Assembly (NCBI GenBank): GCA_949127775.1
Contig: CASBQF010000312.1
Span: forward strand, 1 to 38,792
DNA: 38,792 nucleotides
Reading direction: 5' to 3'
Source: Oscillatoriales cyanobacterium PMM_0080
GTDB lineage: Bacteria; Cyanobacteriota; Cyanobacteriia; Cyanobacteriales; Microcoleaceae
Shown here: piece by piece, positions 9,029 through 30,710 of the stretch
Layout of the letters: each line of letters begins with the position of its first letter
Position numbering within the stretch: the first letter of the stretch is position 1
Notes under the pieces: model-generated
The model's input: only the letters and a program-made list of their open reading frames with translations
Told to the model about the DNA's origin: nothing
Database searches by the model: none
Translations under genes and position numbers: made by a program

Positions 9029-10309
9029 ATGCCAAGCTATCGGAAAAAGCGACCGATCGCTGTCGATTTATTTGCAGGCGCGGGCGGGATGACTCTGGGT
9101 TTTGAACAAGCAGGTTTTGACGTACTTGCCTCGGTCGAAATTGACCCCATTCACTGCGCTACCCACGAGTTTAATTTCCCGTTGTGTTCTATTTTGTGCA
9201 AGGATGTCGCACAGTTGACGGGATCGGAAATTAGGGCAAAATCGGCGATCGGGCGACGCGAGATAGACGTAGTAATCAGCGGCTCGCCCTGTCAAGGATT
9301 CTCGATGATGGGCAAGCGCGATGTGGATGACCCGCGAAATTCTCTAATTTTTCACTTTCAGCGCTTGGTTTTGGAGCTAAAACCTAAGTTTTTCGTAATG
9401 GAAAATGTGCCGGGAATTGCATCAGGAAAACACAAAGAACTCCTAAATCTTTTGATTAGCTCTTTTCTAAAAAAAGGCTATCAAGTTGAAGAAAATTATC
9501 AAGTTCTCAACGCTGTTAACTACGGAGTGCCACAAGCTCGCAAACGATTGTTTCTGATTGGGTGCAAAAAAGGTTATGAGTTGCCAAAATACCCTCAGTC
9601 AACTACTTTTCTGCCAAAAAAGAAACTTCCTAAACGCTATAAAAAAGTTAATTTACCTGCGGTTCCGACAGTTTGGGATGCGATCGGAGATTTGCCGCAA
9701 GTGGAACAGTATAGCGAGTTGCTAAACCGAGATTGGGTAATGGCGGAGTACGGAAAGTGCAGCAGCGATTACGCGAGTTTTTTGCGCGGATTCGATGATT
9801 TTGAAAATGACTATGCTTACGATCGCCAGTACGATCGACAAATCCTCTCTTGTAGTTCGCGAACCAAACATTCTCTGGAATGTATAGAAAGATTTCATGC
9901 TGCAAAACACGGCGAAAAAGAGCCGATCAGCCGTTTTTACAAGCTGCATCCCGAGGGAGTTTGCAACACTCTCAGGGCTGGAACCGATAGGGCTAGAGGG
10001 GCTTATACGTCGCCGAGGCCGATTCACCCGATCGCCCCTCGGTGCATTACAGTCAGGGAAGCGGCGCGACTGCATTCCTATCCTGACTGGTTTAGATTTC
10101 ACGTCACAAAATGGCATGGTTTTCGCCAAGTCGGAAATTCTGTACCGCCGCTATTAGCAAAAGCTGTAGCAGCGCAGATTATTTGCGCTTTGGGCGTGAC
10201 ACCAACTAAGCCGAGTTTCAACCAACTGACATGGGGAGATGATTCGCTACTTAAACTAAATTGGTCTGAAGCAGAACAATATTATCTCAAAAGATCAGAC
10301 GGCGGTTGA
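9029..10309 (+). CDS. Orphan DNA (cytosine-5-)-methyltransferase
   Basis: This 426-residue protein has the C5-methyltransferase motifs in canonical order. Motif I is DLFAGAGGMTLGF at residues 13-25 for AdoMet binding. Motif IV is GSPCQGFS with the catalytic Cys at residue 88. Motif VI is FVMENVPG and motif VIII is QARKRLFLIG. A target-recognition region follows, then motif IX (ITVREAARLHSYPDWF) and motif X (RQVGNSVPPLLAKAVA). No restriction endonuclease gene is next to it, so it acts alone. Cyanobacteria often carry solitary C5 enzymes; Synechocystis has one for CGATCG, the core of HIP1. This protein could be of that kind, judging from recalled N-terminal similarity, but its specificity cannot be read here. 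The ATG at 9029 is the first in frame; an ATG at 9024 is out of frame. Confidence 0.93.
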   Translation: MPSYRKKRPIAVDLFAGAGGMTLGFEQAGFDVLASVEIDPIHCATHEFNFPLCSILCKDVAQLTGSEIRAKSAIGRREIDVVISGSPCQGFSMMGKRDVDDPRNSLIFHFQRLVLELKPKFFVMENVPGIASGKHKELLNLLISSFLKKGYQVEENYQVLNAVNYGVPQARKRLFLIGCKKGYELPKYPQSTTFLPKKKLPKRYKKVNLPAVPTVWDAIGDLPQVEQYSELLNRDWVMAEYGKCSSDYASFLRGFDDFENDYAYDRQYDRQILSCSSRTKHSLECIERFHAAKHGEKEPISRFYKLHPEGVCNTLRAGTDRARGAYTSPRPIHPIAPRCITVREAARLHSYPDWFRFHVTKWHGFRQVGNSVPPLLAKAVAAQIICALGVTPTKPSFNQLTWGDDSLLKLNWSEAEQYYLKRSDGG

Positions 10310-10374
10310 AACCGCGTCTATACAGGCAAAACCCGCCTTCGCGGGTTGAAAACCGGGCCGTGCGCATTGCGCAC
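10300..10374 (+). terminator. Hairpin cluster at the end of the methyltransferase gene
   Basis: Three stem-loops follow one another. 10300-10321 (agacggcggttgaaaccgcgtct, overlapping the stop) pairs with one bulge. 10331-10346 is ACCCGC-CTTC-GCGGGT. 10360-10374 is a perfect GTGCGCA/TGCGCAC palindrome. None is followed by a long T-run, so this is a possible but not textbook terminator, and the units are also dispersed repeats. Confidence 0.45.
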
Positions 10375-10432
10375 CCTACTGAATTCACACAATCCCAACA
10401 ATAATGGTGAATATAAAACTATAAATCAATAC

Positions 10433-10557
10433 GGTTTACTTAACACTATTTATGCCCCGGATATCCCCCTAAATCCCCCTTAAGAAGAGGACTTTGAGAG
10501 CATTCTTGTCCCCCCCTTTTTCAAGGGGGGTTAGGGGGGATCTCTTTTAAGTGAACC
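10433..10557. mobile_element. MITE-like palindromic element, copy A
   Basis: A 79-bp core (10463-10541) reads ATCCCCCTAAATCCCCC at one end and the imperfect inverse GGGGGTTAGGGGGGAT at the other, with ggactttgag and ttcttgtcc inside. Outer arms ggtttacttaa (10433-10443) and ttaagtgaacc (10547-10557) extend the palindrome. A second core of the same length is at 24274-24352 in the same orientation. No coding capacity. It lies between the methyltransferase and the chemosensory cluster. Confidence 0.7.
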
Positions 10558-10565
10558 CTATTCAA

Positions 10566-11912
10566 TTACAAATCAACTTCCAATCTTCCTTTCAATAAAT
10601 AAGCCGCCATTTGTCCCTTACCTTTGACACTAATTAAACCGCGTTTTTCAAACTGATACTTGTCTTCTATGAGTAAATAAGTTGCTTCCGAAATCTGAAT
10701 TCCGTCCGGTATACCGTGAGATTCCATGCGAGAAGCGGTATTTACCGTATCTCCCCACAAATCGTAAATAAACTTTTTTGTACCGATGATTCCGGCTACG
10801 ACTGGCCCGGAATGAATGCCGATGCGGATGCTGAGACTGATGCCGAGCTTTTCTCTATATTGAACTATGGCTTCTTGCATATCTAGGGCCATTTCGGCGA
10901 TCGCATTTCCGTGATCGTCTCTCGGATTTGGCAATCCCGCTACTACCATATAAGAATCGCCAATTGTCTTGATTTTTTCTAAACCGTGCTTTTCGGCAAG
11001 TTCGTCGAACTGGGAAAATATATCATTAAGTAAGTGTACTAATTGTTTGGGCGATATCGATGCTGACAACTGAGTAAAACCAACAATATCGGCGAACATG
11101 ACGCTGACTGCTGCGAATTCGTCGGCGATTATGCCTTGTTCTTTTTTTAATCTTTCGGCGATCGCCTCTGGTAATATATTTAGCAGCAACTCCTGGGATT
11201 TTTTTTGTTCTATCTCCAATTTTGCTAAATAATCCTGCATGGTTTGATAGGCAAGATTCCTTTCCAACAGGTGCATATAAGCTTTGGAGTGATAGCGGAT
11301 TCTAGCTATCAGCTCGACTTTATCGGGCAATTTCACCACATAATCGTTAGCGCCCAAGGAAAATGCTTGCGCTTTTAGTTCCGCTTCTTCTTTACTGGAG
11401 AGCACAATCATCGGAATGTCTCGCGTCAGCGAATTTGCTCGAAAAAACCGCAGCAACTGCAATCCATCTATTTCGGGCATTACTAAATCTTGGAGGATTA
11501 CTGTTGGCTTCACCTCTAATGCTTTCTTAATTGCTTGAGCCGGATCGTTACAGTAATAAAATTTTATATCTTTTTCACTAGCAAGCATTCGGCGCACCGC
11601 TTCGCCGATCATTTCCTGATCGTCAATCAGTAAAACTGTCACACTGTATTCGGTCAAGCTAGATGGTTTTTTGCTTTCTGAATTTAAGGGTAAACTTAAG
11701 TCAACCGAGTGGCGGCCTCTCTCCAAGCTGAGGTTACTGAGAATGGCGCTATCTTTGGCTGTAACTGGGTTTTTGCCATTATTTCCCCTGTCCTCAAACT
11801 TCAACGTTACCACGTTGTCGTTGAATCTTTGACTTTCCAGTTGATTTACTGCACAACTGCGATCGAATTCAATAGTCTGAGAGTGAGTTAATTTCATAAC
11901 TAGATCGGGCAA
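10566..11912 (-). CDS. Receiver-coiled-coil-class III adenylate cyclase (WspR-position output protein)
   Basis: The 448 residues carry a receiver at about 92-212 and a coiled coil at about 215-258. The acidic pair of the receiver is in LLIDDQEM and the phospho-Asp is D142 in VILQDLVMP. A class III cyclase domain spans about 265-440. Metal ligands are D275 (FADIVGFT) and D319 (IGDSYM). K315 (IKTIGD) and D384 (YDLWGD) are the adenine-specifying pair of adenylate cyclases, where guanylate cyclases have Glu and Cys. N391 and R395 (VNTASRMES) complete the active site, so cAMP is the expected product. The receiver strongly recalls WspR of Pseudomonas (MIGEAVRR, PTVILQDLVMP, GANDY, VKLPD, ARIRYHS), whose output is GGDEF. 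It is the last gene of the cluster; the spacer from cheB contains two hairpins. An ATG five codons later is an alternative start. Confidence 0.93.
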   Translation of the reverse strand: MPDLVMKLTHSQTIEFDRSCAVNQLESQRFNDNVVTLKFEDRGNNGKNPVTAKDSAILSNLSLERGRHSVDLSLPLNSESKKPSSLTEYSVTVLLIDDQEMIGEAVRRMLASEKDIKFYYCNDPAQAIKKALEVKPTVILQDLVMPEIDGLQLLRFFRANSLTRDIPMIVLSSKEEAELKAQAFSLGANDYVVKLPDKVELIARIRYHSKAYMHLLERNLAYQTMQDYLAKLEIEQKKSQELLLNILPEAIAERLKKEQGIIADEFAAVSVMFADIVGFTQLSASISPKQLVHLLNDIFSQFDELAEKHGLEKIKTIGDSYMVVAGLPNPRDDHGNAIAEMALDMQEAIVQYREKLGISLSIRIGIHSGPVVAGIIGTKKFIYDLWGDTVNTASRMESHGIPDGIQISEATYLLIEDKYQFEKRGLISVKGKGQMAAYLLKGRLEVDL

Positions 11913-12294
11913 CGGCCATTGTCTGGAGAGGGCAAAAACTTTTACTTAAAGTTTTGTTAATTGTTAATAGAGACCCAGTGTTATTTAATTACCTTTACCT
12001 AGCGATCGTACTAGGTTCAGAATCATGTTACCGATTTATCTTTGTAAAATCTTTACAAAGCTTAGCACGCCTAATATCGATCGCAACCCCTAGAGACGCT
12101 AGTTTTTCGGTTAGTGGTTTTTTTTGGTAGCAATGGCCCGTGAACCTACGGACTGCGATGACAATATACAGTATGTATCGACAAAATCCCAAAATATTAA
12201 CCCATAGATAGATGATCCTCGGCAAGAGTCTGCCGAGTCATCGGCCATTGTGCTTAAGACCTTAAGCCATATGGCCCAAAGGTCTCCGATATTT
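11913..12294. other. Spacer between cheB and cyclase gene with two hairpins
   Basis: This 382-bp spacer has no credible gene. It holds a strong stem at 12243-12276 (ggccattgtgcttaag / cttaagccatatggcc) and another at 12218-12237 (CTCGGCA-loop-TGCCGAG). Both lie just after the cheB stop. With no T-run they could be processing or partial termination sites, and the cyclase gene may have its own promoter in the AT-rich stretch near 11940-12000. Confidence 0.45.
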
Positions 12295-13299
12295 CTATAC
12301 TAGATACTTGATACAGGCTGAGCCGATCGCCTCGATCGGCAAAACCTGCACGGCTGCGTCCAACTCCGCCGCCGCCTTCGGCATCCCGTAAACTACCGAG
12401 GTAGCGCGGTCTTGGGCGATCGTATGCCAGCGGGCCGATCGCAAAACTTTGAGTCCTTTAGCGCCGTCTTTACCCATACCCGTTAACAGCACTGCCACAC
12501 CTTGGCCCGGCCAGTATTGGGCGATACTATTAAAAAAACTGTCTACTGAGGGACGGTAAGGATAGTCTAAAGGTTCTTTTGTATACCTAAGTGTTAAGTT
12601 CGATTGTAATACTAAGTGATCGTTAGTAGCGGCAATTACCACCTTACCGACTTCCATAGGTCGATCGGGCACTGCCACACTCACCGACAAATTACTTTTC
12701 TGACTCAGCCATTCTGCCAAACCAGGAGCAAACTCAGCATCTACGTGTTGGACGATCGCCACAGCCGCCGATAAATTAGCAGGTAAAGCCGACAGTAGAG
12801 TTGCCAAAGCTTGGGGCCCGCCAGTCGAAGAGCCGATCGCCAGCAGCGGCGGAGTCAAGCATTTGGGAGTAGCGCTGCGAAATATCGAAGTCGAGTTACT
12901 TTTGCCAATCAATCTAGCGACTTTAGAAATAGTTTTTAACAATTCCATACCACCGCTTTGGGAATTGCCCATCGACCCCAAAATCGGCGTATTAATGGCA
13001 TCCAAAGCTCCATATCCCATAGCTTCAAACACCCTACCAGAATTACCCGTTACCGAAGATGTCACCAATAGAATCGCGCAGGGAGATTGCTTCATGATCA
13101 AGCGCGTCGCCTCAACACCATCCATCACCGGCATGATCAAATCCATCAAAATCAAATCCGGGGTATTGCGAGCGCACTGTTCTACAGCCTCAGCCCCATC
13201 ACCAGCTATCCAAATAATTTCATATTCCGGTACTGTCACCAAAACTCGGCGCAAGGCTTCAGCAGCAATCAGTCTATCGTTGACGATCGCTATTTTCAT
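12295..13299 (-). CDS. cheB: Chemotaxis response regulator methylesterase CheB (WspF-like)
   Basis: CheB demethylates receptor glutamates when its receiver is phosphorylated. Counting from the ATG at 13299 (MKIAIVND), the receiver has its phospho-Asp at D53 ([13 protein letters not shown]). The methylesterase triad is Ser158 (IGSSTGG), His185 ([13 protein letters not shown]) and Asp278 ([10 protein letters not shown]). The start MKIAIVND, the SPCAILLVT block and [16 protein letters not shown] recall WspF rather than flagellar CheB. An ATG at 13314 would add five residues (MVNFN); the shorter start matches the family. It lies downstream of the CheA hybrid gene across a 490-bp repeat-filled gap. 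It should set adaptation of the three upstream receptors. Confidence 0.95.
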
Positions 13300-13436
13300 G
13301 TTAAAGTTGACCATTATTTTATTAACTTTCAGTTGTGAATAGTTGTCGAATTCGGCTGATAGAGTTTTTTTGGCGGAATTTTTTTTAAAACATGACTGAT
13401 ACAGCTAACTATTTAATACCACATTTTGGTCTCATA

Positions 13437-13745
13437 TCAATTCCGGTTGCATCAGAATTAATATTACCCGAAATCAGGACACGGCAGTGCCGTGTCCCTA
13501 CAATAAATCGAGGTAGAAATCAGGACACGGCAGTGCCGTGTCCCTACAATAAATCGAGGTAGGGAAACGGCACTGCCGTGTCCCTACCATAAATCACGGT
13601 AGAAATCAGGAGACGGCAGTGCCGTGTCCCTACCATAAATTGAGGTAGAAATCAGGAGACGGCAGTGCCGTGTCCCTACCATAAATCACGGTAGGGAAAC
13701 GGCACTGCCGTCTCCTCTTTATCATTCCGGCGCAGCCGGAATTGA
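13437..13745. repeat. Array of six hairpin units between cheB and cheA, bounded by an inverted repeat
   Basis: Six 21-bp units starting at 13477, 13523, 13563, 13609, 13655 and 13695 have the form GGACACGGCAGTGCCGTGTCC or a close variant. The first two have perfect 10-bp arms around one base. Spacing is 46, 40, 46, 46, 40 bp, and the third and sixth units face the opposite way. The gaps (ctaccataaatcacggtag and similar) are conserved too, so this is not CRISPR. The array is flanked by tcaattccggttgc (13437-13450) and its near-inverse gcagccggaattga (13732-13745). The remainder of the 13315-13791 gap is AT-rich without genes. Confidence 0.9.
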
Positions 13746-13791
13746 TCGCATTTTTATTTTAATTAAAAAAACTCAACCGGAGATTTTTTTT

Positions 13792-16773
13792 TCAAGCCTC
13801 ACCGATTAAATCAACCACCGCATTTAACAGCGTATCGTCGTGAAAACTGCTTTTAGTTAAATAATAATCTGCTCCCACTTCCAAGCCTCTAATTCTATCT
13901 TCCTCGCGGTCTTTGTAAGAAACAATAATAACCGGAATCGATTTTAAACCCGAATGATTTTTAATTTGACTAACCAGCTCAATTCCCGTCATGCGCGGCA
14001 TATCAACATCGCTGATTACCAAGTCAAAATTCCCAGTGCGCAGAGCATTCCAACCATCCATCCCATTCACAGCTATCTCTACTTCATATCCTTGATTTTC
14101 TAAAAGTTTTCGCTCTACTTCTCGGACTGTAATCGAATCATCCACTACCAAAACGCGCTTGCGAGTAGTTGATTCAGCAGTTTGTGCAGTTTGACTAACT
14201 TTCTGCAACCGAGTTTCAGTCAGCATTTTATCAGTCGATCGCACCAAATCCTCCACATCGATAATCAGCACCGGCGAACCGTCTTCCATAAAAGCAGCAG
14301 CGCTGATATCCGCTACCTTACCCAAACGGGGATCTAAAGGCCTCACAACCAAATCTCGTTCGCCCAGAAACTTGTCTACAGCTAAACCATAGCTGCTAGA
14401 TCGATCGCTCACAATCACCACCGGTAGAAAATCCAATTTATGAGATGGTGGCGGTAACTCCAACACTTGATAAGCTGTCACCAAACCAATGTTTTGGTTG
14501 TCGAGAGTAAAATACTGTCGGTTTTCGGCGATCGCAATCTGTGCACTGTCAACGATCACAATGCGATCGATCCGAGTCAGCGGAAAAGCATAAGGTTCCC
14601 CTGAAATTTCCACCAACAGCGTCCGAATTACCGACAGAGTTAGCGGCAACTGCAAATGAAAACTCATGCCTTTTCCCGGCAGAGATGTCGCCCGTAGAAT
14701 GCCACCAACCTCCTGCACCATACTCTGCACAATATCCAAACCAACACCACGGCCCGAAATTTCCGTCACTTGACTAGCAGTAGAAAATCCCGGCAAAAAC
14801 AGAAAATCCATCAGTTCCGGTTCAGTCAATTTCGCGGCCATTTCCGCACTTACCATCCCTTTCGTGACAATTTTTTGGCGGAGTTTTTCCGGTTCGATTC
14901 CTTTTCCGTCATCCGAGACAGTAATTGACAGCATCCCGCCCCGATGTGCAGCTTCCAGCCGGATCATACCTTCGGCAGGTTTTCCCGCAGTCAAACGCGC
15001 ATCAGGGAGTTCAATACCGTGATCGAGAGCATTGCGCAAAATGTGCGTTAGCGGTGCTTCTAATTTTTCTAAAATATCTCGATCGACCTGAGTAGACTTG
15101 CCAACGACTTCAAATTTTACTTGCTTACCAAACTGTCTCGCCAAATCTCTCAGCATACGCGGAAAAGCTGAAACGCCGTCGGTAAAAGGCCTCATGTTAC
15201 TAGCAATAACTTCTCGGTACAAGCGATCGGACAAGTTAGCAGAGCGGCGGGCAAACAGTTCTAGTTCATTTAGGCGATCGGATAAAATGTGACGACAATC
15301 ATTAGCTTTTTTTCGAGCACTACCGAGATAATCTTCCGATCGCTGATCCAGCACAGAATCGCCCAAAGATTCCTGCAACTTTTCCAACAAATTATACAAT
15401 TGTCCTTGATGGGTTCTCAGTTTCAATAATGAATCAGCAAACGGTTGCAGCCATTTTGCTTCTACTAAGGATTCGCCCGCCAAACCCATAATCCGATTTA
15501 AATTTTCCGCATTGACTCGCACTACGCGGTCTCCTACTTTCGGCTTTTGAGCGTTTTCCCTGAGATTGGCAGTTGCAGTTTTGCCACTCGCCCTTCGAGT
15601 CGATAGTTGCTCTACAGTGACTGCGGTAGAGTTGCCAGTTTGGGAAATTTGACCGCTGCTTTCTGTTAATTCAGCAGTAGTATTTTGTAATGGTGGTTGC
15701 GCTGTCGGTGTTATTTGAGAATTCGTTTCATTGGCTGAAATTGCTACTTTTTGAGTTTTTGCTGCTTCAGCAATCAGATTAATAGCTGCGACAATGGAAT
15801 CTATTTCTGCCTCTCCTTCTTCTAGCCAATTTTCTATTACCAGAACCGGGATTTTCTGCATATCTTCCAGAAAGTCTACTCCAGCAAGCAGATTGTCGAT
15901 TTGACTAACATTTAAGCTAACTTTGTGCTTCTGAAGTGCCACAAATGTATCTTCTATCGCCCGGGCCAGTTTGACAACTTGGTTAAACTGAACTATTCTA
16001 GCAGCACCTTTAATTAAATGAGCAGATTTGATCGAGGAGTCCAAGTCTAAGTATTCATTGGGATTATTTTTAAGAGCTAGTAAACTTTGATTTAACAGTA
16101 TTGATTGCGCTTCTACTTCTCCCAAAAACAAAGATAACATGGGTAAATCAGTTTTTAGCAGCCGAGTTTCTGGACTTTCAACCTGCGGAAACTCTGGCAA
16201 TATTTTTTGAGAAATATCTGAATTGGCTTGTGGATAATCTGTTGCTTCTATGGTAAAATCAAGATAGGATTCCGATGCTAGTTCTGGCGTAATTTCGCTC
16301 TCAAAAATTGTCTCTGGTTCTATTTGTTCTGCTTCAGATTGGCTGTCAAAATCTAATTGTTCGTTATTGATAATTGCTAAAATAGCAGTTTCTAAGCTTT
16401 CAACTTGCGATAGATTCATCGGTAGCCAATTCTCGATCTCGGTTTCGGGGATCTGGCTGATTTGGGCCAAAAGGTCGATCGCCCGCAGCATCACATCAAT
16501 CTTATCTGGTGCATCCAGGGCGATCGAGCCAGCCTGCGCCGCCACAAAGCAATCCTCCATCACATGAGCGATTCGCACAGCAGCATCCAGTCCCACAATC
16601 CGCGCCGCACCCTTGAGCGAGTGAGCCGCGCGCATCAAAGATTCCAGCTCAGCAGGAGAACTCGGGTTATTTTCCAGCGCCAAAATGTTCTCATTTAATA
16701 TTTCTACTTGGCTGTCCGCCTCCATGCGAAATAAATCCATCATGGAGAAATTGCTCATATCTTGATTGCTCAT
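13792..16773 (-). CDS. cheA: Hybrid chemotaxis histidine kinase CheA with C-terminal receiver (WspE-like)
   Basis: The 993 residues hold two HPt domains, with phospho-His at H51 (AAHSLKGAARIVG) and H252 (SAHLIKGAARIV). A low-complexity linker runs about 330-400. The dimerisation segment follows (NLNRIMGLAGESLVEAKWL), then an HATPase domain (THILRNALDHG, VSDDGKGIEPEKL, SGRGVGLDIV). A CheW-like domain follows, and finally a receiver (VLVVDDSITVREVE, VISDVDMPRMTG with phospho-Asp near 920). It should autophosphorylate in response to the receptors and pass phosphate to its own receiver, CheB and the cyclase receiver. The single-chain kinase-receiver layout is that of WspE; the second HPt is an addition. 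An ATG at residue 6 is possible. The upstream gene is the Cys-rich cheW. Confidence 0.95.
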   Translation of the reverse strand: MSNQDMSNFSMMDLFRMEADSQVEILNENILALENNPSSPAELESLMRAAHSLKGAARIVGLDAAVRIAHVMEDCFVAAQAGSIALDAPDKIDVMLRAIDLLAQISQIPETEIENWLPMNLSQVESLETAILAIINNEQLDFDSQSEAEQIEPETIFESEITPELASESYLDFTIEATDYPQANSDISQKILPEFPQVESPETRLLKTDLPMLSLFLGEVEAQSILLNQSLLALKNNPNEYLDLDSSIKSAHLIKGAARIVQFNQVVKLARAIEDTFVALQKHKVSLNVSQIDNLLAGVDFLEDMQKIPVLVIENWLEEGEAEIDSIVAAINLIAEAAKTQKVAISANETNSQITPTAQPPLQNTTAELTESSGQISQTGNSTAVTVEQLSTRRASGKTATANLRENAQKPKVGDRVVRVNAENLNRIMGLAGESLVEAKWLQPFADSLLKLRTHQGQLYNLLEKLQESLGDSVLDQRSEDYLGSARKKANDCRHILSDRLNELELFARRSANLSDRLYREVIASNMRPFTDGVSAFPRMLRDLARQFGKQVKFEVVGKSTQVDRDILEKLEAPLTHILRNALDHGIELPDARLTAGKPAEGMIRLEAAHRGGMLSITVSDDGKGIEPEKLRQKIVTKGMVSAEMAAKLTEPELMDFLFLPGFSTASQVTEISGRGVGLDIVQSMVQEVGGILRATSLPGKGMSFHLQLPLTLSVIRTLLVEISGEPYAFPLTRIDRIVIVDSAQIAIAENRQYFTLDNQNIGLVTAYQVLELPPPSHKLDFLPVVIVSDRSSSYGLAVDKFLGERDLVVRPLDPRLGKVADISAAAFMEDGSPVLIIDVEDLVRSTDKMLTETRLQKVSQTAQTAESTTRKRVLVVDDSITVREVERKLLENQGYEVEIAVNGMDGWNALRTGNFDLVISDVDMPRMTGIELVSQIKNHSGLKSIPVIIVSYKDREEDRIRGLEVGADYYLTKSSFHDDTLLNAVVDLIGEA

Positions 16774-16941: not shown

Positions 16942-17610
16942 TCAGACAATCTTCTTATTTAACGCATAAAACAACAAATCATCATCCAGATAACAAACAC
17001 TTTGCCCCTGCCAACTTATAATCCCTTTAGTATAAGTTTCTGGCACCTTAGAAACAGTCGCCGGGACATTTCTGATTTGTTCCGGGAGAATGCGGTGAAT
17101 GCCATAAATTTCATCCACCCCAAACACCCAGCGGCTGCCTTCTCTCTCAACAACTACCATCCTCTCGTAAACAACAGGACTAATATTTTGTCTGCTAGAA
17201 TCTGCCACTTCCAATCCCAAAAGTGCTTTTAGCGAAATACATAACTGCATTTCGCCGCGAATATTCACCAAACCGATAAGTATATTATTGCTGCGATGAG
17301 GCAAAGTGTGCGTAACAGATATCTGCGTCACTTCTTTAAACAGTGCCGCCGGTAAAGCCAACCATTCGCCATTGAGCCGAAAAATACCTACAGATACAGT
17401 ACCCGCAGCCGTGACGGCGTTAGTTACTCCTTGGCTCGATCGCAATAAATTAGTCCACTCTTCCAGATACCCTGCCGGCAATTCCTGTTCCAGCAAACTG
17501 CGGCCTGCGTCGGAATAGACAGGACAGTTGCGGCAGTGAATAAATGTCTTTAATTGGGGACAAGTGCGATCGCCCCCAACTCCGATCCGATTCCAGCAAT
17601 CATCAGTCAT
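16942..17610 (-). CDS. cheW: CheW-like coupling protein with N-terminal Cys motif (WspD-like)
   Basis: The 222-residue protein couples receptors to CheA. Residues 1-35 carry DCWNRIGVGGD, then TCPQL and HCRNCPVYSDAGRSLL, giving four cysteines in a CW-x(n)-CP-x(n)-CRNC arrangement. Residues about 70-215 are a CheW domain (VGIFRLNGEWLALPAALFKEV, HRSNNILIGLVNIRGEMQLCISL, VFGVDEIYGIHRI, and GIISWQGQSVCYLDDDLLFYAL). The DCWNRIG...HCRNCPVY head is what I recall for WspD, which helps place the locus in the Wsp class. The Cys cluster might bind metal or sense redox; this is a guess. It follows the receptor gene by 68 bp and precedes cheA across 168 bp of repeats. Confidence 0.93.
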   Translation of the reverse strand: MTDDCWNRIGVGGDRTCPQLKTFIHCRNCPVYSDAGRSLLEQELPAGYLEEWTNLLRSSQGVTNAVTAAGTVSVGIFRLNGEWLALPAALFKEVTQISVTHTLPHRSNNILIGLVNIRGEMQLCISLKALLGLEVADSSRQNISPVVYERMVVVEREGSRWVFGVDEIYGIHRILPEQIRNVPATVSKVPETYTKGIISWQGQSVCYLDDDLLFYALNKKIV

Positions 17611-17678: not shown

Positions 17679-19271
17679 TTACTTTAAAAAGGCTAGCATT
17701 TCGTGACGTAAACCGAGTGTAGCATCGTTCACTTGCCCGATCGCCCCATTGATATCCCGCAGCGCCGCCGCAGTTTGCGAAGAAGCATCACTCAACTGCA
17801 CCATAGCCTCACTAATTTGCTGAGCACCCTGAGACTGCGCATCCATCCCCTCATTCACCTCCTCAAAACGCGGAGTCAAAGCCTCCACCCGCTGAATAAT
17901 CGACTCCAACTGCAAACTAATAGTTTGCACATCTTCCACCCCCCGGCGCACCTCATTAGTAAACTTATCCATTTCCATCACACCAACACCCACCGCAGAC
18001 TGCATTTCTTTAACCATATTTTCAATATCCAAAGTAGCCACCGCAGTTTGATCTGCCAGGCGACGAATTTCCCTAGCAACCACCGCAAAACCCAACCCAT
18101 ACTCACCCGCTTTTTCCGCTTCAATAGCTGCGTTGAGTGAAAGCAAATTAGTTTGATCTGCCACCTTCGTAATCGTCGTGATAATACTGTTAATATTATT
18201 AGCCTTTTCGCTAATTACTCCCAATTTACCCGAAATTGCACTCGTAGAATCAGCTAATTTATTCATCGTTGATTCCATCCGGCTAATTTCTTGTTTCCCG
18301 CCGCCAGCAGATTGAGCCGCTTCGTGAGACATCTGGGAAACTTCATCCATTGTCCTCGCGAGTTGCATAGCAGTAGCAGCAATTTCTTTAGCCGTAGCTA
18401 CTACTTCATTAGTCGAGGCCACTTGTTCGTTCATAGTCGCTTCTAATTCCTTGCCGGAGGAGGCAATTTGGTTAGTAGAGCCGCTAATTCTAATGCCGGA
18501 CATATCTATTTGATTTTCTAGAGTTTGGGATACTGTGCTCGTGAGGAACAGCCCAAAGAGTCCCGCCGTTAGCGGGCCGAGAATCATGCCCACAATCACC
18601 CAGAATGTGGTTTGAGTTACATCGTTTCTTGATTGTTCTTTCGCTAGTTTTGCCGTAGTTTCATTAATTTTCAAATCTTCCAAGATCAAGTTAGTAGCTG
18701 CTTCAAACGAGACGCGATTCGCTTTTGCCCGATCGCTCAATTGATTGTAAAACGCCCCAGCCCTTCTAGCAGCCTCAATATCGGGCGACTTAGTATTCCC
18801 TTGGCCGACCAGTTCGATCTGCCTTTTAAATGGGTTGATAATTCCCAAACTCTCAAATTTTTTATTTAAACCTAAAAACGCTTCATGATTTTTCTTCCAG
18901 ATATCCCATTTTGCCTGCAATTCTTTATACAACTTGTCTTCATCCGCACTCCGTGGTGTACTTTCGTACTCTTTGAACCCATCATTAATCTGCTCCCAAG
19001 CTTTCTGAATTCTCGTCAACTCACCGCTTCTCTCCTCAGCGCTGAGTTCCAAACCCAGCAAGGCCCGTTCCGACGACTCAATTTGCGTTTGCCCTTCATT
19101 AACTTTCCACAATCCGCTAATGCTAGGCAAAGAATTATTAGCTAGCGTATCAATATGTCCGCCGAGCCGAGAATTGCCGCTCCAGCCGATAAAACCCACT
19201 GCTAAAACAATAATCGCTAGAAAAATAAATGCTGCATTCAGACGCTTTTTGAAACTAATATCTTTAAACAT
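17679..19271 (-). CDS. Methyl-accepting chemotaxis protein lacking HAMP (MCP-1)
   Basis: The 530 residues have a TM helix at about 12-31, a periplasmic four-helix-bundle sensor at about 32-220, a second TM helix at about 222-244 and a cytoplasmic signalling domain. The tip is conserved (ADQTNLLSLNAAIEAEKAG, GFAVVAREIRRLADQT). Compared with its paralogue at 20984-22738, which aligns over the sensor, about 48 residues between TM2 and the signalling domain are missing. The missing piece is the whole HAMP domain, and the junction is in frame (FLTSTVSQTLENQID). HAMP normally converts TM motion, so signalling may differ here or the protein may act within mixed arrays. No C-terminal CheR-binding pentapeptide is seen. 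The start overlaps the previous receptor gene by 8 bp, implying translational coupling. Confidence 0.93.
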   Translation of the reverse strand: MFKDISFKKRLNAAFIFLAIIVLAVGFIGWSGNSRLGGHIDTLANNSLPSISGLWKVNEGQTQIESSERALLGLELSAEERSGELTRIQKAWEQINDGFKEYESTPRSADEDKLYKELQAKWDIWKKNHEAFLGLNKKFESLGIINPFKRQIELVGQGNTKSPDIEAARRAGAFYNQLSDRAKANRVSFEAATNLILEDLKINETTAKLAKEQSRNDVTQTTFWVIVGMILGPLTAGLFGLFLTSTVSQTLENQIDMSGIRISGSTNQIASSGKELEATMNEQVASTNEVVATAKEIAATAMQLARTMDEVSQMSHEAAQSAGGGKQEISRMESTMNKLADSTSAISGKLGVISEKANNINSIITTITKVADQTNLLSLNAAIEAEKAGEYGLGFAVVAREIRRLADQTAVATLDIENMVKEMQSAVGVGVMEMDKFTNEVRRGVEDVQTISLQLESIIQRVEALTPRFEEVNEGMDAQSQGAQQISEAMVQLSDASSQTAAALRDINGAIGQVNDATLGLRHEMLAFLK

Positions 19272-20898
19272 TTTCTGCTTCCTTACTACTTACTTTAAAC
19301 CGAGAAATTTCTTGATGTAAACCTTGAGATGCGTCATTTAATTGACAGATAGCACCGTTAATTTCGCGCAATGCCTCCACAGTTTGCGACGAAGTTTGGC
19401 TCAAATAAGTCATCACCTCGCTAATTTGCCCAGCACCTGTCGATTGAGCCTCCATCCCCTGATTTACCACTACAAAACGCGGAGCGATTGCCTGCACCTG
19501 CTCGATAATTTCAGTTAGTTGCCAGCTTACACTTTCGACATCCTCAACACTGTGATTTACCTCTTCAGTAAACTTGTTCATTTCCGTCACCCCAGTCGAA
19601 ACTGCTACCTGCATTTCCTTGACCATTTTTTCAATATCCAAAGTAGCCACAGCAGTTTGATCGGCGAGGCGCCGAATTTCTCGGGCAACAACAGCAAAAC
19701 CCATACCATATTTTCCCGCTTTTTCTGCTTCGATCGCTGCATTCAAAGAAAGTAAGTTAGTTTGATCTGCAACTTTAGTGATTGTAATAATAATTCGGTT
19801 AATATTGTTAGCTTTTTCGCTAATGTTGGTAAGTTGGCTAGAAATCAAAGTCGTGCCAGTTGCTAAATCCCGCATGGTATTTTCCATCTGGCTCAAATTC
19901 CGCTGCCCGCCCTCTGCCGCGATTGTTGTGGTTTTGAATGTAGAAGTGATTCCCTCCATTGCTTGCTTGAGTTGCCGAGAAGTAGCACTAATCTGTTTTG
20001 TAGTAGCTTCAACCTCTCTAATCGAAGCTGTTTGTTCGGTGACAGTCGCTTCTAACTGCTTGCCAGACGCAGCAATTTCATGAGAGGAAGTGGTTACTTG
20101 AATGCCGGAATTCTGCACTTGTCCAATTAAGGAATTGAGGCTTTCAGTCATGCTTTGAAATCCGGCGAGTAGTTGTCCAACTTCTCCCTGATAATTGGCT
20201 GAAATATTGGCAGTTAAATTGCCCGCCGATACCTCTTCTGCAACTTTTACTGCTATTCCCAATGATTGCGCAATATTCCGGATAATGATCCAAGAAATTA
20301 ACGCACCAACTCCCACAATAATCAAAGTGCTGGCCCCAGAAAAGTAAGTTGAAAAAATCTCAGCTTCCCGGGCTAATTTCTTTCTTTCATCCAATAATTG
20401 ATTTTCACTTTCTTTGATTTCTGTAATTTTCCCCCTCAGTTTTGCCATAATTTTCAATCCAGTCCCGGTACTTACTAGATTTTTCACATCCTGTTCTTTA
20501 CCTGATTTTTGCATTTGAATAGTTTTTTCTAAATAATCTATTCTTTCTCTAATTAGAATCTGCAATTCGCCAAGCTTTTGTTGCTGTTGTGCATCTCTAA
20601 TTTTCTCTTTCAACTCTGTTAGCTGGACATTTATATTCACACTTGCTTCATTGTATGGATCTAAAAAATCTTCTTTTTTAGTGTACAGATAACCGCGTTG
20701 ACCAGTTTCAGCTTCTAATAAAAGCACATCCAACTGTGTTAAATTTTGCAAAAGTTCATAGCTCAAAGTAACATTATCTAAAGACTTAACTAAAGTATTT
20801 TTAGTGTGCTGGGCTACGAGATTCGCAATGATTATCAACAGAAAGATTGTGCCAAATCCCGTCCATAAAACTTGTTTAATCGTTAATTTTTTCTGCAC
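19264..20898 (-). CDS. Methyl-accepting chemotaxis protein with CHASE3-type sensor (MCP-2)
   Basis: The 544-residue receptor has TM1 at about 11-29 and a periplasmic region with the CHASE3 signature EAETGQRGYLYT and coiled-coil helices. TM2 is near 188-208 (TLIIVGVGALISWIIIRNI), and a HAMP domain follows (VAEEVSAGNLTANISANYQ). The MCP signalling domain has the same tip as its neighbours (ADQTNLLSLNAAIEAEKAG). Its sensor is unrelated to those of the flanking receptors, so the cluster can read at least two kinds of input. It lies 85 bp after MCP-3 and its stop overlaps the start of MCP-1 by 8 bp. The ligand is unknown. Confidence 0.94.
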   Translation of the reverse strand: MQKKLTIKQVLWTGFGTIFLLIIIANLVAQHTKNTLVKSLDNVTLSYELLQNLTQLDVLLLEAETGQRGYLYTKKEDFLDPYNEASVNINVQLTELKEKIRDAQQQQKLGELQILIRERIDYLEKTIQMQKSGKEQDVKNLVSTGTGLKIMAKLRGKITEIKESENQLLDERKKLAREAEIFSTYFSGASTLIIVGVGALISWIIIRNIAQSLGIAVKVAEEVSAGNLTANISANYQGEVGQLLAGFQSMTESLNSLIGQVQNSGIQVTTSSHEIAASGKQLEATVTEQTASIREVEATTKQISATSRQLKQAMEGITSTFKTTTIAAEGGQRNLSQMENTMRDLATGTTLISSQLTNISEKANNINRIIITITKVADQTNLLSLNAAIEAEKAGKYGMGFAVVAREIRRLADQTAVATLDIEKMVKEMQVAVSTGVTEMNKFTEEVNHSVEDVESVSWQLTEIIEQVQAIAPRFVVVNQGMEAQSTGAGQISEVMTYLSQTSSQTVEALREINGAICQLNDASQGLHQEISRFKVSSKEAENV

Positions 20899-20983: not shown

Positions 20984-22738
20984 TTAACTAACTTTGAATC
21001 GAGAAATTTCGTGTCGCATACCCTGGGCTGCTTCGTTCAATTGTGCGATCGAACTATTGATTTCGCGCAAAGCATCAGCAGTTTGCAGCGAAGTTTCGGC
21101 TAACTGCGCCATAGTTTCGCTAATTTGGTGAGCACCTTCCGATTGAGCTTCCATCCCTCGATTGACAGAATCGAAGCGGGGAGTCAGAGATTGTACTTGT
21201 TCAATGATCTGCGCTAATTGCACGCCGATGTTGCGAATATCTTCCATCCCCCGGCTGACTTCATGGGAAAATTTATCCATTTCCATCACCCCAGTAGAGA
21301 CGGCTGACTGCATCTCTTTAACCATATTTTCAATATCTAAAGTGGCAACGGCTGTTTGGTCGGCTAGGCGGCGAATTTCGCGGGCGACGACGGCAAAACC
21401 CATGCCATATTCTCCAGCTTTTTCGGCTTCGATCGCCGCATTTAAGGAAAGTAAATTAGTTTGGTCTGCTACTTTAGTAATCGTCGTCACAATGCTGTTG
21501 ATATTGTGAGCTTTTTCGCTAATTATTCCGAGTTTGTTCGAGATAGAGCCGGTAGCATTTCCCAATTGTTTCATAGTATTTTCCATGCGGCCTAGCTCTT
21601 TTTGACCGATGCTAGCTTCGCGGGCGGTTGACTCTGACATATGGGAAACTTCGTCCATAGTTTTTACGAGTTTCCCGCTGGTGGCTGCGATTTCTTTGGC
21701 TGTAGCTACAACTTCGTTTGTGGAGGCGGCTTGTTCGTTGACTGTGGCTTCTAATTGTTTCCCAGAAGCTGCTATTTGGGTAGCTGATGAAGTGATTTGA
21801 ATGACCGATTTTTGGACTTGCTTGATTAATGCAGCTAAGCCTCGATTCATGCTGCGGAAAGAGTTCTGCAATTTGCTGATTTCGTCTTTGGTGTCGCTGA
21901 CATGAACTTCTGCTGTCAAATCGCCGATCGACATTTTCTCTGCTACATCCACAACTCCCGCAATTTTCGCCCCCAAAGGTTTGGCGATCGTATTGCTAAA
22001 GTACAGTCCAAACAGTACAGCAGTTAACGGCCCGATCAGCGTGCCCAAAAGCACCCATAACCGAGTTTGAGTGATATCCTCGGCGGCGGCTTTTGCCGAA
22101 TCTGTGGCTAATTGGCGATCGTAATTGAGAAGTTTTTGCATTCCCTCAGTCGCAGCTTGAAATGTAGTTACTTTCACATTCAAAGCTTGTTCGTTCATTC
22201 TGTTAAGCACCTCAACTGCTGCTTTAGCAGTTGCTAGTTCAGGTGATTTATTTTTACCATTTTGTAGCAAATTAATCTGGGTTTGTCTTGGGTTAAAAAT
22301 GCCAAATTTTTCATATTCTGTATTTAGTTGTTGAAATTGTTTGTGAGCATCATCCCACCTTTGCCACAGCGGTTGAAATTCTTGATAAAGTTTTTCTTCG
22401 CTGTCGTCGCGCGGGATTTTTTGATATTCTTGAAAACCTTGATTTATTTGATTCCAAGCATTATTTATTCTAGCGATTTCTCGGCGTCTTTGTTCTGTAT
22501 TAATTGCTTCATTGAGCAGCATTCGATCGGAAGACTGCACCTGTGTCTGTCCTTCGTTGATTTTCCACAAAGCCACGGTGCTCGGATAAGCATTGTTGGC
22601 GAGGGACTCCAAGCGCCCCGATAGCCGAAAATTGCCGCTAGCACCAACCAAGGCCACAACAAGCACGATCGCCCCCATGAACACAAACGCAGCCATCATG
22701 CGTCTTTGCAAAGTCATATTCTTAAAAATGTTCTCCAT
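20984..22738 (-). CDS. Methyl-accepting chemotaxis protein with four-helix-bundle sensor and HAMP (MCP-3)
   Basis: The 584 residues comprise TM1 (about 14-33), a periplasmic helical sensor (about 34-222), TM2 (about 226-248), HAMP (about 249-302, IAKPLGAKIAGVVDVAEKMS) and the signalling domain with the hairpin tip (ADQTNLLSLNAAIEAEKAG). Sensor and signalling parts align with MCP-1 nearly without gaps, so one arose by duplication of the other. It is the first receptor gene after cheR, 29 bp downstream. The Wsp pathway normally has one receptor in this role (WspA); here there are three. The C-terminus RFKVS has no tethering pentapeptide. Confidence 0.95.
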   Translation of the reverse strand: MENIFKNMTLQRRMMAAFVFMGAIVLVVALVGASGNFRLSGRLESLANNAYPSTVALWKINEGQTQVQSSDRMLLNEAINTEQRRREIARINNAWNQINQGFQEYQKIPRDDSEEKLYQEFQPLWQRWDDAHKQFQQLNTEYEKFGIFNPRQTQINLLQNGKNKSPELATAKAAVEVLNRMNEQALNVKVTTFQAATEGMQKLLNYDRQLATDSAKAAAEDITQTRLWVLLGTLIGPLTAVLFGLYFSNTIAKPLGAKIAGVVDVAEKMSIGDLTAEVHVSDTKDEISKLQNSFRSMNRGLAALIKQVQKSVIQITSSATQIAASGKQLEATVNEQAASTNEVVATAKEIAATSGKLVKTMDEVSHMSESTAREASIGQKELGRMENTMKQLGNATGSISNKLGIISEKAHNINSIVTTITKVADQTNLLSLNAAIEAEKAGEYGMGFAVVAREIRRLADQTAVATLDIENMVKEMQSAVSTGVMEMDKFSHEVSRGMEDIRNIGVQLAQIIEQVQSLTPRFDSVNRGMEAQSEGAHQISETMAQLAETSLQTADALREINSSIAQLNEAAQGMRHEISRFKVS

Positions 22739-22767: not shown

Positions 22768-24117
22768 CTATTTTTCGATTCGCTGAATGCGCCGGCGGAC
22801 GATCGCAGCACCGGCAATATCTCCTCGCTCTTCTTTGAGCAAAGCTAGGTGAATTAGTCCTTCATAGTGATCCGGTTTCAGATAAGTTGCTTTTTGGAAA
22901 GATTGCTCGGCTTGTTGGCGATCGCCCGTTGCTTGGTAAACTTGCCCCAATAAAACGTAAGCGTCAGCATTTGTGCGATTTTGACTGAGGTAAGTTTCGC
23001 ACAGTTTGGCCGCTTCCTGCAATTGTCCGCGATCGGCCAAACGTCGCGCTGTGTCTAAATCGGCACTAGCAGAGTTGCTAGGGTGTGCTGCTGGGGCGAT
23101 CGCCCGAACCGACAAAATCTGCGAATTACCAGCCTCCCTCGGATATTTTTCAGGGGAAGTAGAGGGTTTACTATTAACACTTGAAAACTTATTATTGCGC
23201 ACCTTATCGGTATTTTCGGCGCGTTTATACTCCCGAATCCGCGTCGAATTAATCTTAGTCTGCTCTTGTTTAACCTGCACTTGCGTACTGTCAGGAATAT
23301 CGATTTTGCGGTAGGCAAACGCTAGGGAATGACGCACCGCAATAAACTGATTGGGCAATTTTTGCCCGCTTTCCGAGTGACCTAAAAATAATAGTCCAGT
23401 TCTTTTAAACAATCGATTTAAAAGTTGCACAGTGTGACTTCTGCCTGCATCATCAAAGTAAATTAACACATTGCGGCAAAAAATCACATCATAAGGAATT
23501 TGGTTGACCAAAAAAGAATTGTCTAGAATATTACCCTGAATAAAATTAACTTTCCCTCTCACCAAGTCATTCAACTGATAAAGGTTTCCCGCAAGTTCTG
23601 TAAAATAGCGATCGCGAAAGTCTAAGTTTTTGTCGCGGAAAGAGTTTTTGCCATAAACTCCGCGCTGAGCTTTTTTGAGAGCAACTTTGCTGATGTCTGC
23701 GGCATCAATGCTGAAGTTGATCGGATTTAAACCAGCTTCGAGTAGGGCGATCGCGATCGAGAAAGGTTCCTCCCCCGTCGAACAAGGAAGGCTCAACACG
23801 CGCAGGGTTTTGGCGGGATTTTTTGGCAACCATTCCAAAAGTACATAATGCCGCAAAAAAACAAAAGGTTCTCGATCGCGAAAAAACCAAGTTTCCGGTA
23901 TCACGACAGTTTCGATTAATTCTTCCAATTCTGGCGCGGATGTTTGCAATTTTGTCCAGTAAACATTTGCATCCGTTAAACCGCAATCTGCCATGCGACG
24001 GTTGACTGCTCTAGCAATTGTATTAGAACCAATAGTCAGAGCATCCAAACCAATTTTTTGTCTGAGTAGAGCTTCAATTGCTGCTTGTATCATTGATTTT
24101 AGCTCGTAAATTTGCAT
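22768..24117 (-). CDS. cheR: Chemotaxis protein methyltransferase CheR with C-terminal TPRs (WspC-like)
   Basis: CheR methylates receptor glutamates using AdoMet. From the ATG at 24117 (MQIYELKSMIQAAIEALL) the protein has 449 residues. There is an N-terminal helical domain (RQKIGLDALTIGSNTIARAV), the WspC-like block TVVIPETWFFRDREPF, and the AdoMet site VLSLPCSTGEEPFSIAIALL. IFCRNVLIYFDD follows, then a polar linker and TPR repeats at the end (AYVLLGQVYQATGDRQQAEQ, LKPDHYEGLIHLAL). TPRs mark the WspC/FrzF class, where they gate access to receptors without the pentapeptide, which fits the receptors here. An upstream ATG at 24210 is rejected because its 31 extra residues are unlike CheR and begin inside a repeat element. 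Confidence 0.94.
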   Translation of the reverse strand: MQIYELKSMIQAAIEALLRQKIGLDALTIGSNTIARAVNRRMADCGLTDANVYWTKLQTSAPELEELIETVVIPETWFFRDREPFVFLRHYVLLEWLPKNPAKTLRVLSLPCSTGEEPFSIAIALLEAGLNPINFSIDAADISKVALKKAQRGVYGKNSFRDKNLDFRDRYFTELAGNLYQLNDLVRGKVNFIQGNILDNSFLVNQIPYDVIFCRNVLIYFDDAGRSHTVQLLNRLFKRTGLLFLGHSESGQKLPNQFIAVRHSLAFAYRKIDIPDSTQVQVKQEQTKINSTRIREYKRAENTDKVRNNKFSSVNSKPSTSPEKYPREAGNSQILSVRAIAPAAHPSNSASADLDTARRLADRGQLQEAAKLCETYLSQNRTNADAYVLLGQVYQATGDRQQAEQSFQKATYLKPDHYEGLIHLALLKEERGDIAGAAIVRRRIQRIEK

Positions 24118-24195
24118 TGAAAATATAAACTTCTCTCGAAACTGTTGGCAAAGCAATCTGCCTTCTGCATAAATACTGGCAAGTAGGGGATACTT

Positions 24196-24432
24196 GTAGG
24201 GACACGGCAATGTCCAAAGCGTGTCAACTTAAACATGAAAGCCTTGAGAAATCTCGTTTTTACCTGAGTCTAGATCCCCCTAAATCCCCCTTAAGAAGGG
24301 GGACTTTGAGTAACTTCTTGTCCCCCCCTTCTTAAGGGGGGCTAGGGGGGATCTAGGCTTAACAGTCAAACAGCATTCTGTGACTGGGTTTGATGTTAAG
24401 TTGACACCTATGGGCTCTTGGAGTGTCCCTAC
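24196..24432. mobile_element. MITE-like palindromic element, copy B, between cheW and cheR
   Basis: About 237 bp are bounded by perfect 10-bp inverted ends GTAGGGACAC (24196-24205) and GTGTCCCTAC (24423-24432). A second perfect inverted pair lies inside, GTGTCAACTTAA (24221-24232) and TTAAGTTGACAC (24396-24407). The centre is the 79-bp palindromic core 24274-24352, matching the core at 10463-10541. The end sequence gtagggacacggca is the arm of the hairpin units at 13477-13715. No gene lies in the 378-bp gap. Confidence 0.8.
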
Positions 24433-24495: not shown

Positions 24496-24981
24496 TCAGT
24501 TTTCTGGCTGAGGAAGCAGATAATTTTTTTGGGATTCAGGCAGCAGATGTTCTACCCTGACAAATTGAATCATACCGCGATCGTCTGCGATCATTTCTCC
24601 CAAATAAGGAGTGGTGTCAATCTTAATCCCGGGACTAACAAATTCAGTTTCCGGTTTGTCGAGAGTTTCTGTTACCCTTTCGGCCATCAGCCCTAAAATT
24701 AGGGGGCTTCTTGAACTGTCGCCGTTCCCCTCAGAAGTATCGGGAAACTGGCAATTGACTAAGACGATGCGCGTGCTCAAGTAAGCGCGGGCCGCCGTCC
24801 CCTGTATCATTTGGCACAGATCGATGACTGGGACAAGATGTCCTCTGTAGTTAAACAAACCGGGAATATATTCCGGGGCGCTGTGCATTTTTTTCAAAGT
24901 GACAGTGGGAACTACTTCGACTACACGCCTGCTATCTAAGGCGTAGCGATCGTCCCCTACATAAAAGAGCAACATTAACAT
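24496..24981 (-). CDS. cheW: CheW coupling protein (WspB-like)
   Basis: The start at 24981 (MLMLLFYVGDDRYALDSRRV) gives a 161-residue single CheW domain. It opens at once with the first SH3-like strands (VVEVVPTVTLKKM), then YIPGLFNYRGHLVPVIDLCQ, LSTRIVLVNCQ and LGLMAERVTETLD. A longer reading frame to 25059 adds 26 residues unlike CheW. The short form also leaves 143 bp for the divergent promoters shared with the BON-domain gene. The protein should bridge receptors and CheA. It is the first gene of the minus-strand cluster, parted from cheR by a MITE-like element, and matches WspB in size and N-terminal pattern. Confidence 0.9.
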   Translation of the reverse strand: MLMLLFYVGDDRYALDSRRVVEVVPTVTLKKMHSAPEYIPGLFNYRGHLVPVIDLCQMIQGTAARAYLSTRIVLVNCQFPDTSEGNGDSSRSPLILGLMAERVTETLDKPETEFVSPGIKIDTTPYLGEMIADDRGMIQFVRVEHLLPESQKNYLLPQPEN

Positions 24982-25124
24982 CGGGATACCAGTAGAGATT
25001 TTATATTTTGCAAGTCTAGCGGAAAACATTTTGAGAAATTTTGCTGAGTTTTGCAACAATTACAAGTCTTTTGGAATTCTAGAGGTATCTTAGAAAAAGT
25101 GTATTTTCTGGAGACTAAACTACT

Positions 25125-26430: not shown

Positions 26431-26823
26431 TGAACTTACCTTGTTTTTGGTTTACAAGGTCAATTGTTTTTTTGGGTTTTTCCCCAAACAACTTCCCCAC
26501 GCAAACCTCGGAATGCTTGTAGAATGAGGATTAGCAGCTTGGGGGTGCAGGCTGGTTTGGGCAAATCAAAATTTTTTTAGTACGACTTACGCACGGGTAG
26601 CCAGAAACCGGGTTTTTTTACGAAAATCCTCTGCTGTAGTCCGCAGATTAGGTAAAAAACCCGGTTTCTTTGGTCTTATACCATTTTTTTAAAGTTATGA
26701 CAGACTTGCCAAACAGGGAAAGTGGATAAATTACCATGTCTTGTCGTCCTCCATCTCTATCTGATCTTTAGAAAAATGGTATTAGTGGGTAAGTCCTGTT
26801 TAGGTTTTCTTTATCATTACGAT
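26431..26823. other. Intergenic region with AGAAACCGGGT inverted repeat
   Basis: This 393-bp gap upstream of the NACHT gene contains an inverted repeat with 17-bp arms, agaaaccgggttttttta (26603-26620) against taaaaaacccggtttct (26653-26669). Ctgc/gcag pairs inside the loop. A second member is at 32144-32208. An open frame from 26722 would add 34 residues to NACHT but has no family match. I see no other gene. Confidence 0.65.
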
Positions 26824-30333: not shown

Positions 30334-30710
30334 AACTAATTTGCATCGACACTCACCAATTCATAGAACCCGAAAACCCCGCCCCAGAAATTTACGATGA
30401 GATGCAAAATCAAAATTGTCCAGAGTGGCAGAATGGGTATCCAGATACCATGCAAAAACTCAAACTGTATTGGAATTCCCTGCGCCGCCAAAGCGAAATT
30501 CCCCTATTTTTCATCTGCTACGATTCCACAGCACTCTCAGTCACACCCACAGGATTTAGCGCTCCATTTCTGAAAGCTTTAAGCAAATTCGATCGCGCGA
30601 CTTGCATAGTATGCGAAACAGAGGATATTCCGCTACAAACTTTCTCACCCAGTCGGCCCGATTTAGTTGAGGAAATAGTTAAGTGGATAAAAGCCGACTG
30701 GAACAATTAA
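30186..30710 (+). pseudogene. C-terminal domain of the NACHT protein, displaced out of frame
   Basis: This frame overlaps the NACHT 3' end by 148 bp. Its first 30 residues are shadow sequence (MARFLHHTRSRSPRN), while from about 30265 it reads as a compact domain: NLPQLLAEAINHRPDL, KVKLICIDTHQFIEPENPA, QKLKLYWNSLRRQSEIPLF, ICYDSTALSVTPTGFSAPFL and CETEDIPLQTFSPSRPDL. I recall this domain as the tail of cyanobacterial NACHT-HEAT proteins. The shift needed is -1 (a lost base) between about 30240 and 30275. No canonical slippery heptamer is visible, so mutation is more likely than programmed frameshifting. It could also be a sequencing error. Confidence 0.7.

Follow-up and report, generated by a model that had tools for sequence, protein, structure and literature searches.

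The window analyzed here is the whole stretch of contig C312 (38,792 nucleotides) from the 6.36 Mb draft genome of a mat-forming cyanobacterium. A chemosensory gene cluster is encoded on its minus strand, in the transcription order cheW, cheR-TPR, three MCP genes, cheW, cheA-REC, cheB and, last, a receiver-cyclase gene. The first cheW (24496..25059) is wspB-like, and the following cheR-TPR (22768..24210) is a wspC-like methyltransferase gene; both were assigned with Pfam and BLAST. The three MCP genes, recognized with Pfam, encode a protein with a 4HB_MCP sensor (20984..22738), one with CHASE3 and HAMP (19264..20898), and another with a 4HB_MCP sensor (17679..19271). Downstream lie a wspD-like cheW (16942..17610), a wspE-like cheA-REC for a hybrid kinase with Hpt, HATPase, CheW and receiver domains (13792..16773), and a wspF-like cheB for a methylesterase with a receiver (12295..13314), all three assigned with Pfam and BLAST.

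Five proteobacterial wsp clusters (L167-L171) were used as the BLAST reference. Each kind of gene in the window cluster is matched in them, with one MCP gene in each reference cluster versus three here. CheA-REC shows 42-46% identity over ~785 aa to all five reference clusters, and 33-37% over the C-terminal half to three other CheA loci of the same genome (25-36% in a second BLAST comparison). Judged by these identities, the window CheA resembles WspE more than it does the genome's remaining CheA proteins. CheB is 36-54% identical to the cheB products of the five clusters. An earlier note, made from the DNA letters alone, had assumed an intact chemosensory pathway, and a complete one is encoded here, with MCPs, two CheW, CheR-TPR, CheA-REC and CheB in one Wsp-ordered cluster. 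The diguanylate cyclase output of WspR is absent; no GGDEF match was found with Pfam in the terminal protein of the cluster.

Measured from ORF ends, the gap between cheB and the cyclase gene is 382 bp, and that between cheA and cheB is 477 bp and contains repeats. Gaps of this size leave a single transcript for the whole cluster in doubt. A consensus scan of 10300-14000 detected 4 terminator-like sites (3.5 in shuffles) and 11 promoter-like sites (6.5 in shuffles, sd 2.1), counts that carry no conclusion. The repeats in the cheA-cheB gap are palindromic, lie at 13470-13716 and have a spacing of 46/40 nt. Genome-wide, their core palindrome has 702 exact copies (321 forward, 381 reverse; 0 for a control pattern), as in a REP-like element. 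Adjoining the cluster, a C5 cytosine DNA methylase is encoded on the plus strand (9029-10309), with a strong PADLOC match to type II methyltransferases. A lone receiver-domain protein of 143 aa is encoded near the contig end (420-851, minus strand).

The receiver-cyclase gene was correctly placed at 10566..11912 in the earlier note, and its coding strand is the minus strand; the opposite (+) frame is riddled with stop codons. The ORF is 448 aa long when counted from a TTG at 11912. An ATG five codons downstream and a GTG upstream are the other start candidates, and the frame 5' of the TTG is similar in 6 relatives (L179-L184). The ORF, the Pfam and PDB matches, a tree and an alignment define a WspR-type receiver, a stalk helix and a class III nucleotidyl cyclase. 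Pfam matches are Response_reg at residues 93-206 (2.9e-19) and Guanylate_cyc at residues 264-442 (3.9e-65), and no NCBIfam family was over its cut-off among the best 25 of 30 matches. The protein starts with a variable N-terminal extension (residues 1-91, 11640..11912), which is mostly missing from the relative L060. It is followed by the receiver (residues 92-212, 11277..11639) with the phosphoacceptor D142, and the cyclase catalytic domain occupies residues 264-442 (10587..11123).

Close relatives of the gene are found in Microcoleus, Tychonema and other filamentous cyanobacteria. Within the genus, 13 of 29 genomes, the source genome counted, carry the gene; 12 copies are full length and one, in G808, covers only residues 150-447, apparently at a contig edge. 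This distribution indicates a gene beyond chance. The remaining 16 genomes show no match at the search threshold used, and thus the receiver-cyclase is an accessory gene.

Among all PDB sequences, the best matches to the receiver are 3i5a (1.4e-53) and 3bre (2.3e-52), both of which we take to be WspR structures from Pseudomonas; PleD comes next with 6.7e-17. With the window receiver as a query, the next-best receiver in the source genome scores just 1.1e-15. The blocks MIGEAVRR, PTVILQDLVMP, GANDY..VKLPD and ARIRYHS, which the earlier note had likened to WspR, were all found in the translated protein. A receiver tree of 84 rows and 132 columns was built by a quick method with SH-aLRT support, its rows excluding duplicates, short segments and sequences below bit cut-offs. 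In it, 64 WspR-type receivers are split from 20 controls by a branch with support 100; the controls include the receivers of other receiver-cyclases from the same genome. The cyanobacterial WspR-type receivers form one clade (95), within which the window receiver and nine close relatives are grouped (96).

Receiver-cyclases are common in the source genome (L003, L005, L006, L010), and an ordinary CyaC-type protein of this kind could have come to lie beside a chemosensory cluster by accident. The receivers of these four proteins, however, are only 28-37% identical to the window receiver over the matched stretch, whereas identities to WspR-type receivers of proteobacteria reach 62%. For this comparison, 20 of the 34 class III cyclase matches in the genome were taken as loci, and L019, a weak match with 31%, was left out. 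The receiver-cyclases among the controls of the tree and the AU test were eight true ones, the same four plus four from L092, L093, L120 and L127, with CyaC itself outside the set; a ninth row tagged as a receiver-cyclase in both, L092_2997, is a lone receiver. When the class IIIa fusion receivers are constrained to group with those of the control receiver-cyclases, the log-likelihood drops by 264.5 units (AU p = 1.1e-5), and the window receiver does not group with the receivers of other receiver-cyclases. In addition, a cheB-like gene shares the stretch with the WspR-type receiver gene in all 25 cyanobacterial loci described below. A chance neighbor is thus extremely improbable. A CyaC-type receiver, which the earlier note had named as the outcome that would speak against its reading, is rejected by identity, tree and AU test alike, and these results together with the PDB scores bear out the WspR type. 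By sequence comparison, the window receiver is orthologous to that of WspR.

The transition from WspR to cyclase was located with two profiles. A profile from 22 WspR-type proteins aligns well as far as ~residue 227, while one from 45 cyclase proteins aligns well starting from ~residue 229; therefore, the join falls within the stalk helix, approximately at residues 225-232 (11217..11240). Retained at the join are the WspR portion ARIRYHS..AYQTMQ and, on the cyclase side, the conserved LLLNILP segment. The linker is gap-free in ten aligned sequences, the window and nine relatives, of which L060 is the more distant. The receiver and the start of the stalk are present, and the GGDEF/GGEEF domain with its c-di-GMP inhibitory site is absent, the C-terminal domain being Guanylate_cyc. 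Thus, the protein does not qualify as a WspR, though its mode of action may be similar.

The same ten sequences show no variation at D97, D98, D142, S172 and K194 in the receiver or at D275, K315, D319, D384, N391 and R395 in the cyclase. We take these residues to be those for receiver phosphorylation and, in the cyclase, for metal binding, substrate recognition (K/D) and transition-state stabilization (N/R), with K315 and D384 presumably constituting the adenylate-specificity pair. The earlier note gave the numbers of these two residues exactly, and its identification of a class III cyclase with adenylate-type, metal and transition-state residues agrees with the Pfam match and the alignments. 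The best-scoring solved enzymes for the domain are adenylate cyclases. In an alignment to mammalian AC9, where the metal-binding set lies in domain 1 and the K/D substrate pair in domain 2, the window chain has both. With both half-sites on one chain, a homodimer with two active sites is expected. The dN/dS values against 10 relatives, a set from which L185 is absent because it was missed by a motif filter, are 0.04-0.20 for the receiver, 0.02-0.25 for the linker and 0.09-0.15 for the cyclase. The N-terminal extension (residues 1-88) shows 0.37-0.74. Both the receiver and the cyclase domain are under purifying selection.

A NACHT protein with EAD4, HEAT and NCC-H domains is encoded at 26722-30333 on the plus strand. 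An overlapping ORF in a different frame (30186-30710, plus strand) contains NCAB1, a C-terminal domain of NACHT proteins, and thus the NACHT gene may be split or frameshifted. The cyclase lies not far from this gene and its catalytic domain is matched by the PycC models of PADLOC (best 3.7e-15), so that cGMP or another cyclic nucleotide, such as that of a Pycsar-like defense cyclase, can be considered as the product. The PycC match resembles generic homology, however, next to the much stronger Pfam match to class III cyclases and the adenylate cyclases among the solved structures, and the K315/D384 pair is that of adenylate cyclases. No Pycsar effector was recognized among the window proteins scanned, a part of the total (Pfam, and PADLOC on five proteins). 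A product other than cAMP is very unlikely on this evidence, and the enzyme should make cAMP.

A search at 1e-30 detected 25 WspR-type receivers in 23 of 386 cyanobacterial genomes. Their outputs were classified by Pfam for 22 proteins, and three members of the source genus were called class IIIa by 90-92% identity to the window protein; the labels IIIa and IIIb for the cyclase families are our own assignments. The class IIIa cyclase is the output in 5 of the 25 (the window, the three of its genus, and L060), and a second type of class III cyclase in 8, seven of which show weak TPR or HAMP matches. A histidine kinase is attached in 7, a SpoIIE-type PP2C phosphatase in 4, and a PAS-kinase-REC-Hpt hybrid in 1. 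GGDEF was found in none of the 25, whether by Pfam (22) or by close identity to the window protein (3). The description in the earlier note of a second messenger swapped from c-di-GMP is too narrow, as the outputs are varied and GGDEF was seen in no cyanobacterial member found. A cheA core is present in the same stretch in 20 of the 25 loci, some of the stretches stopping at contig ends.

In the family of the source organism, 17 of 61 genomes have a WspR-type match. Thirteen of them belong to the source genus and carry class IIIa, three from another genus carry PP2C (L063, L231, L232), and the remaining one, from a third genus (L234), carries the second cyclase type. In the phylum of the Mariprofundus genome G388, a search at 1e-25 gave matches in 70 of 398 genomes; the 33 tree rows from loci fetched in this phylum comprise 28 with GGEEF/GGDEF, four with a histidine kinase and one fragment. 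In Chloroflexota, the phylum of G387, 0 of 201 genomes match at 1e-25, a negative of little weight. WspR-type receiver genes occur in tandem in L167 (12466-14570) and similarly in L148, L155 and L151 (one copy cut off), and the tandem genes close a wsp cluster in L167 and L171. Two wspR copies are mentioned for Zetaproteobacteria strains in the part of the report consulted (PMC5513912).

The receiver tree requires a minimum of 5 output changes. The receiver of L060 (G229) is placed in a different clade from that of the window, and a single clade of class IIIa fusion receivers is kept as acceptable by the AU test (p = 0.254). For the cyclases, a single class IIIa clade gives p = 0.581, and that tree is even the better one; the cyclase tree was built without the long-branched L103, L112 and L126. 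It is somewhat more likely than not that the WspR receiver with the first stalk turns is a portable switch in cyanobacteria. Within one clade it would be joined to a class IIIa cyclase, a second class III type, a SpoIIE-type PP2C, a histidine kinase or a PAS-kinase-Hpt hybrid, five outputs in all, usually with the kinase cluster kept, and class III cyclases would have been recruited more than once. If so, evolution has performed a domain-swap experiment of its own, with a single phospho-receiver and helix driving unrelated enzymes.

For the window, the architecture, the receiver orthology by sequence, the join site, the residue conservation, the purifying selection and the gene order are established. 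They probably represent a Wsp-type (ACF-class) pathway whose terminal regulator has retained the receiver of WspR and the beginning of its stalk, and in which a class III adenylate cyclase replaces the diguanylate cyclase. The CheA-REC kinase would be under the control of the membrane MCPs, whose tuning would fall to CheR-TPR and CheB, and would in turn phosphorylate D142 of the receiver. Pairing of the receivers would then set the register of the stalk helix, presumably a continuous one, and the helix would relay the signal via the LLLNILP segment to the homodimeric cyclase. The cyclase would be activated, rather than inhibited, to make cAMP, to be read by cNMP-binding receptors, of the CRP type or another, whose genes lie elsewhere in the genome. 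Control by the CheA of the cluster is a supposition, against which the three further CheA loci in the genome count, and any link to pili or to a phenotype would be a further supposition. The 34 class III cyclase matches in the genome make the receiver-cyclase one input among many, and it may add little to total cAMP.

The sign of regulation is not readable from sequence. Phosphorylation could inhibit the cyclase, or the receiver could be mainly a phosphate sink, and kinase activity would then lower cAMP. Such a scheme fits the part seen of a report (PMC2270323) in which stalk dimers, parallel and antiparallel, are described as stabilizing WspR in its active and inactive states. The conserved cyclase residues fit an active enzyme, though they do not give the sign; we regard inhibition or a sink as unlikely and prefer activation. 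The same report, as far as consulted, describes P. aeruginosa WspR as regulable without phosphorylation, so the role of the window receiver could also differ in this respect.

The source genome contains 12 matches to cNMP-binding domains, possible receivers of cAMP. The window itself yielded no cNMP-binding gene with our own profile. Near cyclase-bearing clusters, such genes are clear in 2 of 13 (L071, L074) and marginal in one (L076; E 0.00017, within an 875-aa ORF), and they were found in 0 of 12 other clusters; the fetched stretches vary in length and some stop at contig ends. L071 encodes an MscS-like channel with a cNMP domain (9303-10778), and L074 a protein with two cNMP domains (101-1120), each near the receiver-cyclase gene; both are possible local receptors for cAMP. 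Two clear cases of 13 are too few for a link, and the idea of a cNMP-binding gene as the local receptor was set aside. In Synechocystis, cAMP affects motility through SYCRP1, according to the portion of the report consulted (PMC4284465). The pathway is a clear example from nature of well-studied surface sensing whose expected signal is cAMP instead of c-di-GMP. Together with the other enzymes that occur fused to the same type of receiver, it is test material for signal transmission through receiver and coiled coil, and for a possible control of motility or attachment via cAMP by Wsp-type sensing in cyanobacteria that form mats.

The earlier note knew of no described Wsp pathway with this output, which is contradicted by the report of Christmas et al. 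2016 (PMC4971617): in the portion consulted, the wsp cluster of Phormidesmis priestleyi BC1401 has a class 3 adenylate cyclase at the WspR position, and two further cyanobacteria are named with a Wsp system. A Wsp pathway with a class III cyclase output is thus already known in outline since 2016. The window cluster resembles that cluster in its cyanobacterial host and in the order wspB-C-A-D-E-F plus the cyclase replacing WspR. It differs in its three MCP genes and in the cyclic nucleotide-binding gene, which precedes wspB in P. priestleyi and was not found in the window. The orthology of the cyclase's receiver was tested here, whereas no such analysis was found in the part of PMC4971617 consulted. 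In a literature search mostly at the title and abstract level, with few subscription papers, none of the matches listed derived the receiver of a cyclase of this kind from WspR. New here are this tested orthology and the set of 25 cyanobacterial WspR-type receivers, which form one clade with repeated output swapping and no GGDEF.

The window system shares with Pseudomonas WspR and its pathway the receiver, the first part of the stalk, and the gene set and order, and differs in having a class III cyclase instead of GGDEF. Garcia-Fontana et al. 2012 (PMC3447774) reported mononucleotidyl cyclases, phosphatases and kinases among the outputs of CheR-TPR clusters, and the window protein falls among the response regulators of the ACF clusters described there, which join REC to a cyclase of this kind, a protein phosphatase, a histidine kinase or GGDEF. 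The portion of that report consulted lists outputs by domain, with no tracing of receiver ancestry found in it. In a zetaproteobacterial wspABCDEF cluster without wspR, a gene for an adenylate cyclase lies at a distance of six ORFs from wspF (PMC5513912, as far as consulted). Like CyaC (PMC4284465, in the part seen) and other receiver-cyclases, the window protein belongs to those in which a phospho-signal is thought to drive a class III cyclase, but the receivers of the same-genome receiver-cyclases are outside the WspR-type clade, unlike that of the window; CyaC itself was outside this comparison. Pil-Chp of P. aeruginosa is likewise a chemosensory system that raises cAMP via an adenylate cyclase, CyaB. 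According to the part of PMC12632253 consulted, PilG activates CyaB in that system, while the window encodes receiver and cyclase in one protein within a Wsp-type cluster.
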